64,000 nucleotides of DNA, taken from Thermoanaerobacter sp. Its GTDB lineage: Bacteria > Bacillota > Thermoanaerobacteria > Thermoanaerobacterales > Thermoanaerobacteraceae. Both the position numbers and the translations under genes were made by a program. Under the pieces are notes generated by a model that saw only the letters and a program-made list of their open reading frames with translations, was not told the origin of the DNA and did no database searches. Position 1 is the first letter of the stretch; the number at the start of each line of letters is the position of its first letter. Below are positions 7,706 through 29,039 of this stretch, in pieces. Location of the stretch: contig JADBKJ010000020.1 in assembly GCA_014896455.1 (NCBI GenBank), positions 248,001-312,000 of the forward strand, read 5' to 3'.

Positions 7706-8653
7706 ATGGCTATACAAATTGTGCTTATTGTTGGGCCCACAGCCTCTGGCAAGTCTAAATTAGCAGTAGACGTGGCAAAAGAATTTAATGGAGAAATCAT
7801 TTCTGCTGATTCTATGCAAGTTTATAAGTACATGGATGTTGGTACAGCAAAAATTACAAAGGAAGAAATGCAAGGCATCCCTCATTATTTGATAGATATT
7901 GTAGAGCCAAATCAAGAGTTTAGTGTAGCAGAATATGAAAAAAGAGCGAAAGAGATTATAAAGGATATTTACAAAAGAGGGAAACTTCCTATAATTGTAG
8001 GGGGAACTGGTTTATATATCAATTCAATAATTTACATCATGCACTTTTCTGATTTTGAAGGAAGCAAAGAATTTAGAGAGAAAATGAAAGAATTAGCAAA
8101 TACTTATGGCAGTCAATATCTTTATGAGAAGTTAAAAAGTGTGGACCCAGAGGCAGCAAAAAAAATACATTCAAATGATATTAGAAGAATCATAAGAGCT
8201 TTAGAAGTTTATGAATTTACAGGCAAACCTATTTCTTACTATCAAAAAATGAGTGGTATGCGTTTAAATCCAGAGTATCAGCCTATAATGATAGGGCTTA
8301 ATTTCAAAGACAGACAAATTTTATACGATAGAATTGATCAAAGAGTAGATGAAATGATAAAAAATAATTTGGTTGAAGAAGTGGTAAACTTACTAAAAAT
8401 CGGGTATAATAAAGACAGTACTGCTATGCAGGCTTTAGGATATAAAGAAATTGTAGAATATTTAAAAGGAGAGATTTCTTTAGAAAAAGCTGTTGAAAAG
8501 ATTAAGAAAGGGACAAGGAGGTATGCAAAAAGACAGATCACCTGGTTTAAGGGTTATAACTTTATCAAATGGTTTTTTGTAGATGACTATAAAAACTATG
8601 AAGAACTCAAAAAAAATATTATTAAATATTTAGCAGGAAAATTAAATTTTTGA
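7706..8653 (+). CDS. miaA: tRNA dimethylallyltransferase MiaA
   Basis: MiaA prenylates N6 of A37 in tRNAs for UNN codons, using dimethylallyl diphosphate; MiaB then methylthiolates it. The protein has 315 residues. The P-loop GPTASGKS (about 9-16), the DSMQVY motif, GGTGLYINS and the C-terminal YAKRQITWF are all characteristic. AAGGGTGATGG precedes the ATG at 7706. Substrate supply links it to the MEP pathway genes dxr and ispG in this window. Adjacent hfq 42 bases downstream matches the conserved miaA-hfq pair. Confidence 0.97.
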   Translation: MAIQIVLIVGPTASGKSKLAVDVAKEFNGEIISADSMQVYKYMDVGTAKITKEEMQGIPHYLIDIVEPNQEFSVAEYEKRAKEIIKDIYKRGKLPIIVGGTGLYINSIIYIMHFSDFEGSKEFREKMKELANTYGSQYLYEKLKSVDPEAAKKIHSNDIRRIIRALEVYEFTGKPISYYQKMSGMRLNPEYQPIMIGLNFKDRQILYDRIDQRVDEMIKNNLVEEVVNLLKIGYNKDSTAMQALGYKEIVEYLKGEISLEKAVEKIKKGTRRYAKRQITWFKGYNFIKWFFVDDYKNYEELKKNIIKYLAGKLNF

Positions 8654-8695
8654 TAGAATATAACTAATGATACATATTAAAGAAGGGGGATAAAG

Positions 8696-8956
8696 ATGGC
8701 AAGTTCAAAAGCAGCTATTAATTTACAGGATATCTTTTTAAATCAAGTGAGAAAAGAACATGTACCAGTAACTGTCTACTTAATCAATGGATTCCAATTA
8801 AAGGGTTTAGTGAAAGGATTTGACAATTTTACGGTGGTGTTGGAGTCAGAGAACAAACAGCAACTTCTTATTTACAAGCATGCTATTTCGACAATTACAC
8901 CCCAAAAGCCTGTAATCTTCTCTGCTTCTGATAAGGATGAGAAGAAAGAAGAGTAA
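8696..8956 (+). CDS. hfq: RNA chaperone Hfq
   Basis: Hfq is a hexameric Sm-like protein that binds A-rich and U-rich RNA. The 86-residue protein has the Sm1 segment ([20 protein letters not shown], residues about 7-26) and the Sm2 motif with the diagnostic YKHAIST (about 62-68). A short charged tail (SDKDEKKEE) ends the protein, as in Gram-positive Hfq. AGAAGGGGG precedes the ATG. The transcript originally ended at a hairpin now split by an inserted repeat element (8967-9286). Confidence 0.97.
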
Positions 8957-8966
8957 AAACAAAAAA

Positions 8967-8991
8967 ACAGTATTAGTTACCCTAATACTGT
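8967..8991 (+). repeat. Left copy of the duplicated hfq terminator hairpin
   Basis: Arms ACAGTATTAG and CTAATACTGT enclose the loop TTACC. An A-run precedes it, but no T-run follows; instead the repeat element starts with CAGTTTG. The same 25 bases recur at 9255-9279 in direct orientation, including the asymmetric loop. This shows a true target duplication, not just an inverted end. Confidence 0.85.
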
Positions 8992-9254
8992 CAGTTTGTT
9001 GACAAAGTTAAAAAATATTCAAAGGAGATATTTTGCATCGTCGCTCCGATGTTCCAAAGCGACAAAACTAAACTCGACTTTTCGGGTTCCGGCAGGGTAC
9101 CGGGCACAATCGACGTCCTGTCTCAGGTGCCCGCCTCCGCCCTCCTTGGCTTCGGCCCTGCCTCCACCCTCAGTCTCGCTAAGTTTTGTTGCCGCTTTGT
9201 CACAGTCGCTCCGATTGCAAAATATCTCCTTTACGAAAGTTTGTCTACAGTCTG
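8992..9254. mobile_element. 263-bp fold-back repeat element, copy 1, in the hfq terminator
   Basis: The element runs from CAGTTTGTTGACAAAG to AAGTTTGTCTACAGTCTG. A near-identical copy lies at 17838-18097 in the same orientation. The ends are imperfect inverted repeats extending about 75 bases inwards, including a perfect 17-bp pair at 9021-9037 and 9216-9232. The centre (about 9075-9180) is GC- and C-rich, unlike the surrounding AT-rich genome. Its first part (9087-9130) is the most divergent region between the two copies. Short open frames cross it, but the copies differ by indels and share no credible protein. This is a non-autonomous (MITE-like) element or a structured RNA; the mobilising enzyme is not in the window. 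It fills the 358-base gap between hfq and proC. Confidence 0.8.
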
Positions 9255-9286
9255 ACAGTATTAGTTACCCTAATACTGTTTTTTTG
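9255..9286 (+). terminator. Right copy of hfq terminator hairpin with T-run
   Basis: This has the same 10-bp stem and TTACC loop as at 8967-8991, followed directly by TTTTTTTG. It is the working half of the terminator: transcription from hfq must cross the whole repeat element before reaching it. Confidence 0.85.
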
Positions 9287-9314
9287 AAATAACAAAGTAA
9301 GGGAGTTTTTCAAG

Positions 9315-10109
9315 ATGAAAATCGGTTTTATAGGAGTCGGCAATATGGGACTTGCTCTTATAAAGGGCATATTAAAGTCGGATTTTATAGACGCTGAGGA
9401 TTTAATTCTTTATGACACGTTGAAAGAAAAAACAACGGGGTTAGAAAAAGAATTTGGTGTTATTGTTGCAAAAGACAATATTGACCTAACTGAAAAGTCA
9501 GATATTATTATTTTAGCAGTAAAACCTAATATTTACGATGCTGTATTAGAAGAAATAAAAGTAAAAGTAACTGATAAAAAAATAATAATTACTATAGCTC
9601 CGGGTATAACTATAAGTCATGTCAAAGATATTTTAAAAACGGGAAAAATAGTGAGGACAATACCTAATACTCCTGCTTTAATAGGAGAAGGTATTACTGC
9701 TATAAGTTATTCACAAGAGATACAGCGAGAAGATAAAGAGATTGTAGAGAAGATTTTTAAAACCTGTGGGGAAATTGTAGAAATAGAAGAAAAGTTAATT
9801 GATGCTGCAATGGCTGTCTCTAGTTGTAGTCCTGCTTTTGTGTACATGTTTATTGAAGCATTGGCAGATGGTGGTGTACTATTGGAATTACCAAGAGATG
9901 TTGCGTATAAATTAGCTTCAAAGGCTGTAGCTGGTGCAGGTAACATGGTATTAAAAACAGGTTTTCATCCTGGCCAATTAAAAGACATGGTAACATCTCC
10001 AGGTGGTACAACTATTGAAGGTATAAGAATTTTGGAAAAAAATGGTATGAGAAGTGCAGTGATTGAAGCAGTGGCTGCAGCATATCAAAAAACAAAGGGA
10101 TTGAAGTAA
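9315..10109 (+). CDS. proC: Pyrroline-5-carboxylate reductase ProC
   Basis: ProC performs the last step of proline synthesis, NAD(P)H-dependent reduction of 1-pyrroline-5-carboxylate. The protein has 264 residues. The N-terminal Rossmann motif is GVGNMGLALIKG (about 6-17). AVKPN and the RTIPNTPA segment follow, and the C-terminal dimerisation domain carries the family signature around DMVTSPGGTTIEGI. AAGGGAG lies about 9 bases upstream of the ATG. proA and proB are not in the window. The gene is followed two bases later by rnhA, so the pair is probably one transcript ending at 10578-10622. Confidence 0.96.
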   Translation: MKIGFIGVGNMGLALIKGILKSDFIDAEDLILYDTLKEKTTGLEKEFGVIVAKDNIDLTEKSDIIILAVKPNIYDAVLEEIKVKVTDKKIIITIAPGITISHVKDILKTGKIVRTIPNTPALIGEGITAISYSQEIQREDKEIVEKIFKTCGEIVEIEEKLIDAAMAVSSCSPAFVYMFIEALADGGVLLELPRDVAYKLASKAVAGAGNMVLKTGFHPGQLKDMVTSPGGTTIEGIRILEKNGMRSAVIEAVAAAYQKTKGLK

Positions 10110-17816: not shown

Positions 17817-17837
17817 TAGCCTGCAAAATGCAGGTTA
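17817..17837 (-). terminator. Left copy of the duplicated spoVS terminator hairpin
   Basis: On the - strand CCTGC and GCAGG close a 5-base loop and are followed by TATTTTAAA, so this copy keeps the T-rich tract for transcription coming from spoVS. It differs from the right copy (18098-18118) by one base. Confidence 0.65.
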
Positions 17838-18097
17838 CAGTTTGTTGACAAAGTTAAAAAATATTCAAAGGAGATATTTTGCATCGTCGCTCCGATGTTC
17901 CAAAGCGACAAAACTAAACTCGACTTTCGGGCTCTGGCAGGGTACCCCGTCAGGCAACGTCCTGTCTTAGTGCCCGCCTCCGCCCTCCTTGGCTTCGGCC
18001 CTGCCTCCACCCTCAGTCTCGCTAAGTTTTGTTACCGCTTTGTAACAGTCGCACCGATTGCAAAATATCTCCTTTACGAAAGTTTGTCTACAGTCTG
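17838..18097. mobile_element. 260-bp fold-back repeat element, copy 2, in the spoVS terminator
   Basis: This is the same element as 8992-9254: it begins CAGTTTGTTGACAAAG and ends TACAGTCTG. The first 87 bases are identical to copy 1. The block around 17925-17975 is divergent, with small indels. The rest differs by a few single bases. The 17-bp internal inverted repeat is at 17867-17883 and 18059-18075. The orientation on the chromosome is the same as copy 1, but the interrupted gene is on the other strand, so insertion did not depend on transcription direction. It accounts for most of the 353-base gap between the PHP gene and spoVS. Confidence 0.8.
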
Positions 18098-18118
18098 TAA
18101 CCTGCAAAATGCAGGTTA
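18098..18118. repeat. Right copy of the duplicated spoVS terminator hairpin
   Basis: The unit TAACCTGC-loop-GCAGGTTA (8-bp arms, loop AAAAT) lies five bases after the spoVS stop. It has the A-run of the original terminator on its spoVS side, but the element in place of the T-run. It repeats 17817-17837 with one mismatch. Confidence 0.75.
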
Positions 18119-28993: not shown

Positions 28994-29003
28994 CTTTATC
29001 ACG

Positions 29004-29039
29004 TTTGTCAACAAACTGAAGCGCAATAGTATGCGCTTC
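29004..29039 (-). repeat. Hairpin joined to 15 nt of the repeat element's left end
   Basis: On the - strand a perfect 8-bp stem (arms GAAGCGCA and TGCGCTTC, 29018-29039) is followed by CAGTTTGTTGACAAA, the exact start of the elements at 8992 and 17838, and in the same arrangement as there. Nothing else of the element is present. It lies between dapG and tepA where a terminator or ribosome binding site would be expected. It may be a deletion remnant or coincidence. Confidence 0.5.

Follow-up and report, generated by a model that had tools for sequence, protein, structure and literature searches.

Whole-hairpin target duplication at intrinsic terminators by a Thermoanaerobacter MITE and its likely IS1182-family partner

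A 263-bp MITE of Thermoanaerobacter lies within the terminator downstream of hfq, between two exact copies of the complete terminator hairpin. This duplication is real, and the same pattern recurs across the genus. Our main reading, to which we assign a probability of about 0.86, is that the transposase-less MITE would be moved in trans by a DDE transposase of the IS1182 family, which would attack the 5' feet of the stem-loop and leave a target duplication of stem-loop size. The hairpin duplications point to an enzyme that recognises the folded shape of DNA over its sequence.

The hfq-proC site and other copies of the MITE

The window is the whole stretch of DNA that was analysed, 64,000 nucleotides in length. 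In it, hfq occupies 8696..8956 (+), upstream of the target terminator; its protein matches annotated Hfq, with 99-100% identity to those of T. wiegelii, T. thermocopriae and a Thermoanaerobacter MAG. The ORF list places the downstream gene, labelled proC in the preliminary description, at 9315..10109 (+). That description had reported a 263-bp element between exact 25-bp hairpin copies, with an A-run on the left and a T-run on the right, and exact matching agreed with it in every respect: ACAGTATTAGTTACCCTAATACTGT is found at 8967-8991 and again at 9255-9279, with 263 bp between the two. The left copy (8967..8991, +) folds into a 10-bp stem and a 5-nt loop (z -6.1 for the 25-mer), and only this copy keeps beside it the A-run of the original bidirectional terminator (8961..8966, +). 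The right copy (9255..9279, +) matches the left exactly and is the only one to keep the original T-run of six T (9280..9285, +).

The element itself (8992..9254, +) has an imperfect inverted repeat at its ends. The left terminal repeat, CAGTTTGTTGACAAAG (8992..9007, +), matches the end CAGTTTGTTGACAAAGC of an autonomous IS, and the right one, GTTTGTCTACAGTCTG (9239..9254, +), is comparable to the IS end ...TTTGTCAACAGTCTG. The element is thus short and multicopy, shares its terminal inverted repeats with an autonomous IS and has no transposase gene inside, as is characteristic of a MITE; the only ORFs overlapping it (at least 60 aa listed) are of 98 and 68 aa, and both are predicted. Three terminator-like sites were found in the MITE region, compared with a mean of 0.6 in shuffled sequences. 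The scan places a + strand site with its own T tail at 9254-9280 and a - strand site with a T tail at 8992-8966, and the left hairpin at 8967-8991 also passes on the + strand, with the weaker tail CAGTTTGTTG. Judged from this arrangement, termination would be preserved on both strands, and an hfq transcript not stopped at the first hairpin would extend across the structured MITE as far as the second. The predicted RNA fold of the MITE is strong (-101 kcal/mol, z -8.8), as expected of inverted repeats, and no function is claimed for it. An identity as an RNA element was considered and dropped: the sole Rfam match up to E 1 in window positions 8600-9700 was to an unrelated RNA at E 0.17, below the gathering score, and no group II intron catalytic domain reached the gathering score in the same interval.

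The hfq-proC site is empty in all nine congeners (9/9, G001-G009), each of which has a single hairpin and no element. Since these nine sites are empty and none of 400 random flank pairs gave a duplication (0/400), a chance origin of the hfq duplication is excluded.

A second copy of the MITE is present in the window at 17838..18097 (+). It stands between a left hairpin (17817..17837, +) and a right hairpin (18098..18118, +) that differ by one mismatch, the right one being followed by a T-run, and this 21-bp flanking hairpin differs from that of hfq. In addition, a lone element-like end, CAGTTTGTTGACAAAC, is seen at window positions 29003-29018 (-), directly adjoining the hairpin AAGCGCAATAGTATGCGCTT; no right end with two or fewer mismatches was found near it.

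In the assembled genome from which the window derives (G000), near-full-length copies number at least 40, the scoring having covered 40 of 126 candidates. A duplication was found in 18 of 30 fetched copies, and the other 12 had mismatched flanks. Seven of the 30 (among L022-L030) are identical, 265 bp long, and have a common left flank of 33-102 bp; their right flanks differ, except for those of L023 and L024, which are alike over about 38 bp. Five of these seven fall among the 12 copies without duplication. The shared left flank probably reflects gap-closing errors in the draft, and assembly probably accounts for at least part of the 12 copies with mismatched flanks. Because the flanks in this draft are unreliable, the duplication counts were taken from four complete genomes.

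Matches to the MITE were obtained in 14 of the 61 genomes searched. It was present in all ten genomes of the genus (weakly in G003), and weak, partial matches were seen in four of the ten genomes assigned to the same family. G009 also has other MITE subfamilies that share the left end (L141, L144, L149, L155); among them are forms of about 330 bp bearing an additional CCCGGCA...TGCCGGG-like hairpin, and a type marked by 'GTTCTATTTTTGTTGGCATTTTG'. A search of plasmids with the MITE returned one partial match, in Klebsiella NZ_CP061968.1 (19565-19689), a record without annotation, in which 124 bp of the MITE core are matched at 74%. A search of phages returned no match to the MITE.

Hairpin duplication in complete genomes and at empty sites

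The complete Thermoanaerobacter genomes counted were G001, G006, G008 and G009. We examined 98 of the 101 listed end matches, leaving out three without a locus, and 80 of the 98 belonged to two-ended copies. The 18 that were dropped, which include the IS ends L134 and L138, had no partner end, spanned more than 600 bp, or had a partner end of poor quality together with a low duplication score. A direct duplication, defined by a direct-repeat score of at least 9, was found in 66 of the 80 copies and in 0/400 random flank pairs, a null that did not copy the choice of the partner end among alternatives, made partly by duplication score. A hairpin of at least 6 bp was present on both sides in 60/80 copies and on at least one side in 80/80 (null 17% per boundary), and the hairpins are specific to the locus and differ between loci. 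The proposal that copies elsewhere are bounded by duplicated hairpins was therefore upheld, with exceptions that include the 14/80 copies without a direct duplication.

The duplication itself is a hairpin in 59 of the 66 cases (null 417/3300, 12.6%), in line with the earlier proposal of a structure-sized target duplication. Its length ranges from 10 to 40 bp, with 64/66 between 17 and 33 bp, and the 66 lengths gave no sign of phasing with the DNA helix (R 0.16, p about 0.19). At 60/66 sites the duplication is preceded by an A-run or followed by a T-run (null 20.6%). Only 4/66 sites are inside an ORF of at least 80 codons, compared with a null of 76%, and this avoidance fits the suggestion that insertion at a terminator would be nearly harmless to the neighbours. 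Cutting is nearly symmetric around the dyad: neither side has an overhang in 39/66. When 30 distinct near-perfect hairpins were compared (stem filter, 6 bp), their stems measured 6-18 bp and their sequences were unrelated, the first base being A in 20/30 and the last base T in 22/30. The target is accordingly an inverted repeat without primary-sequence consensus, the hallmark of IS1272-type structure targeting. At some sites further A:T pairs could form outside the stem, and the outermost pair available is therefore not always where the cut falls. The preliminary description had spoken of a folded terminator as the target; the palindrome is well supported, and its folded state at the time of insertion is presumed.

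No direct duplication reached the threshold in 14 of the 80 copies. Their median score to the window element was 140 bits, compared with 330 for the rest, and many were diverged or shortened; the lower scores suggest age. Five of the 14 (L310, L323, L342, L360 and L366), however, are well conserved.

Filled and empty sites were compared at 19 loci, comprising hfq and 18 of 31 listed copies, chosen for clear duplication and each having at least one empty orthologue. A 20th locus, L036, was set aside since no empty site was obtained for it. The gap at the empty site was within 2 bp of the duplication length in 74 of 88 empty orthologues across the 19 loci, the 88 including two named records that are possibly equal to genomes of the G set and four divergent orthologues at L008. 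Together with the single hairpin at the nine empty hfq sites, these gaps support the preliminary description, which had proposed a comparison of empty and filled hfq-proC sites, and the hairpins, being locus-specific and single in empty orthologues, are not fixed parts of the repeat. Several terminators have been struck more than once, and the ruvC terminator carries elements in opposite orientations in G000 and G009 (L006 versus L140).

The loop of the hfq hairpin is reverse-complemented relative to eight of the nine congeners, reading GGTAA-like in these and TTACC in G000 and G004 (L119-L128). Across the 88 empty orthologues, the orientation was the same in 70, flipped in 15 and ambiguous in three, with 10 of the 15 flips at hfq. 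An inverting mechanism was considered and rejected on the grounds that 70/88 have the same orientation and that G004 is flipped while empty. Because the empty G004 site is flipped too, and because loops are mainly unflipped at 17 of 18 other loci (the exception, L008, has divergent orthologues), the hfq flip is read as background variation. A loop inversion apparently also separates the two flanking copies of an IS in L299/L389, and likewise in L300/L394.

The IS1182-family partner and the mode of insertion

Two element ends in G009 adjoin a transposase ORF of 493 to 518 aa. The ORF at L134 matched the IS1182-family model NF033551 at 490.5 bits (cut-off 270) and the Pfam families DDE_Tnp_1_6, DUF772 and DDE_Tnp_1. 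Complete IS copies in G008 and G006 are 1560-1568 bp (about 1.56 kb) long, with the ends CAGACTGTTGACAAAA / CTTTGTCAACAAACTG, and consist of terminal inverted repeats around a single transposase gene, as expected of the family. The IS1634 and IS4 families, suggested as the source by the long duplications, were dropped when the adjoining transposase matched IS1182. Full-length open copies of the IS occur in G006, G008 and G009. No intact transposase was found in the 90%-complete genome of the window, and no intact IS1182 copy in the MITE-bearing assemblies G000, G005 and G007; the MITE may be stranded in G000, or the transposase gene may lie in the missing part of that genome.

Of eighteen fetched IS loci examined, 12 allowed both ends to be located. 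Among these 12 copies, 10 are flanked by hairpin duplications of 19-28 bp; at L396 the duplication is 6 bp long and lacks a hairpin, and L400 has none. The MITE and the IS have nearly identical ends on both sides, of about 16 bp each, and nothing more in common. Given these shared ends and the shared outcome at the target, the IS1182-family IS is the likely source of transposase for the MITE, which would be moved in trans. In two of four G009 IS1182 copies, L191 and L200, the left terminal repeat is interrupted by an insert, with CAGACTGT on one side and TGACAAAA on the other. The L191 insert matches the group II intron models RF02001, RF01998 and RF00029. L191 and L200 sit in different terminators, and a group II intron may for this reason be using the IS end as a homing site.

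In the mechanism that we propose, the transposase would pick the inverted repeats of intrinsic terminators, with no visible sequence rule beyond A/T-rich edges. The transposon would then be joined through its two 3' ends to opposite strands, one at each 5' foot of the stem-loop, and gap repair would copy the whole stem-loop onto both sides. The duplication length would equal the hairpin length, and on either strand one hairpin would still be followed by its T-run. The scheme presumes that the target is extruded, as a cruciform or a hairpin, when insertion takes place. A more specific version, which we consider somewhat better than an even proposition, is that this IS1182 subgroup targets the four-way junction of an extruded cruciform at its two 5' feet, so that DNA shape would set the length of the duplication as a counterpart to the deletion made by IS1272, and that MITEs would have spread in this way through the terminators of the genus, each of which would work in both directions.

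Similar products might arise if a transposase dimer bound the half-sites of a linear palindrome and cut symmetrically, with no extrusion. A palindrome does offer two identical half-sites even in duplex DNA, and the near-symmetric cuts, 39/66 of them without overhang, agree with such binding. However, a rigid complex should prefer particular phases or sequences, whereas the stems of 6-18 bp are unrelated in sequence and the lengths are nearly continuous from 17 to 33 bp without helical phasing. Because the lengths are unphased and continuous and the sequences unrelated, structure is favoured over a duplex dimer site, and binding to linear DNA seems unlikely, although it keeps some weight. More doubtful is the idea that pausing or termination of RNA polymerase marks the target, through exposed DNA, an R-loop or contact with the polymerase, and that the opened region sets the duplication. 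The terminator-like A- or T-runs at 60/66 sites would suit it, but the ends of the duplication follow the stem-loop, with the same 39/66 lacking an overhang, and IS1272 also strikes palindromes inside coding genes (PMC5678879, PMC4923244).

Movement of the MITE by a transposase of another family, with its IS1182-like ends being coincidental, appears very improbable. Only about 16 bp per end are common to MITE and IS, and three assemblies (G000, G005, G007) have MITEs and no intact IS1182 copy; yet both ends are nearly identical, and the unusual hairpin duplication is seen also in 10/12 resolvable IS copies. The view that the repeat itself includes the flanking hairpins, or that they existed beforehand as tandem terminators, can be practically dismissed. 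It would account for the one left hairpin common to the seven identical copies of the draft genome, but the variable length of their shared flank is as expected of assembly gap closing, hairpins vary by locus, empty orthologues have one hairpin, and at hfq the nine congeners refute it. We therefore retain insertion at the 5' feet of a terminator stem-loop by an IS1182-family transposase as the preferred reading.

Range within the IS1182 family and comparison with known systems

Hairpin duplication extends to relatives whose ends are similar, namely those from Sutcliffiella (63% identity) and from Acetoanaerobium (49%). Among plasmid-borne relatives, 2/12 had hairpin duplications, the ends of several others being uncertain, and in ISEfa7 just one of the two sides has a hairpin. 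A rhizobial set of more distant relatives comprised 13 copies, namely 12 new loci and L373, one of them with unresolved ends. The 12 with resolved ends gave nine duplications of 4 bp, one of 3 bp, one case with none, and 8 bp in L373; L413 and L417, which have the same flanks, are both among the 4-bp duplications. Published 4-bp repeats of ISPse1 and ISCaa15 (PMC3281130, PMC3196728) agree with the rhizobial copies. L373, on a Sinorhizobium numidicum plasmid, is a single case in which the IS1182 copy lies at the centre of a palindrome and 8 bp are duplicated at the loop, and it resembles the loop-duplication pathway c of Wan et al. (PMC5678879). With 10/12 rhizobial duplications being 3-4 bp and 2/12 plasmid relatives positive, hairpin duplication as a rule for the whole IS1182 family was rejected. 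When the Sutcliffiella transposase was compared with phages, 24 records matched.

With many DDE transposases the target duplication is short and its length depends on the enzyme. Where length follows the hairpin, the insertion products themselves report the structure of the target, and dozens of natural insertions, compared with their empty orthologues, serve much as an experiment would. With the stop signal remade on both strands, such a repeat could spread and do little harm. Cruciform targeting is open to direct biochemical testing with a thermophilic enzyme whose hosts grow in the laboratory. Group IIC introns insert after terminators and resemble the Thermoanaerobacter elements in having terminator hairpins as landing sites; they are otherwise different, being RNA-based, with no terminal inverted repeats and no target duplication.

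Within the genus, an IS1182-like element is behind the TnCO-1 megatransposon of T. kivui, for which the excision of one junction has been called elusive (PMC12056078). That element belongs to the same genus and transposase family as the IS described here, and the hairpin-target rule is absent from the passages of PMC12056078 concerned. An intact IS1182 copy of G006 (L193/L298, about 1,841,600-1,843,150) lies less than 2 kb from the reported start of the TnCO-1 duplication, which was given for another assembly (PMC12056078). The T. kivui element is probably the same IS as in G006, and the hairpin-target rule might help to explain TnCO-1 excision.

Palindrome targeting by some IS1182 members was noted by Siguier et al. 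(cited in PMC4923244 and PMC5678879), and the direct repeats listed for IS1182 in ISfinder range from 2 to 60 bp (quoted in PMC7335449). This range leaves the length unexplained, whereas in the Thermoanaerobacter subgroup the length follows the hairpin, so hairpin-sized duplication may be one reason for it. The staphylococcal IS1182-family elements IS1272 and TnSha1 use stem-loop targets, a good part of them terminators, with no primary-sequence consensus (PMC4923244, PMC5678879), and are like the Thermoanaerobacter elements in having an IS1182-family transposase and targeting stem-loops. Terminators struck by IS1272 elements lose part of their hairpin (Furi et al. 2016, PMC4923244). The outcomes differ: IS1272 takes away the stem-loop in part or whole and no duplication of the target results, whereas the Thermoanaerobacter elements duplicate the whole stem-loop, so that a terminator would be left on each strand. 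The stem-loop replacement (RST) typical of IS1272 does not describe our copies, in which 66/80 MITEs have a duplication and 10/12 ISs have one of hairpin type.

Terminator targeting by IS1182 was thus already known, and whole-hairpin duplication had been foreseen as a possibility. What seems new is the large-scale demonstration, a MITE family that uses hairpin duplication, and the match between duplication and stem-loop; among the papers listed in searches of openly readable full texts, none was seen to report whole-hairpin duplication. In pathway b of Wan et al. (2017, PMC5678879, Fig 13), the 3' ends attack the 5' feet of a cruciform and the whole stem-loop is duplicated. This pathway was drawn as a possible alternative beside the IS1272 deletion, with no example named in the passages that present it (PMC5678879). 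The Thermoanaerobacter products fit pathway b, in dozens of natural cases and with empty sites at 19 loci.
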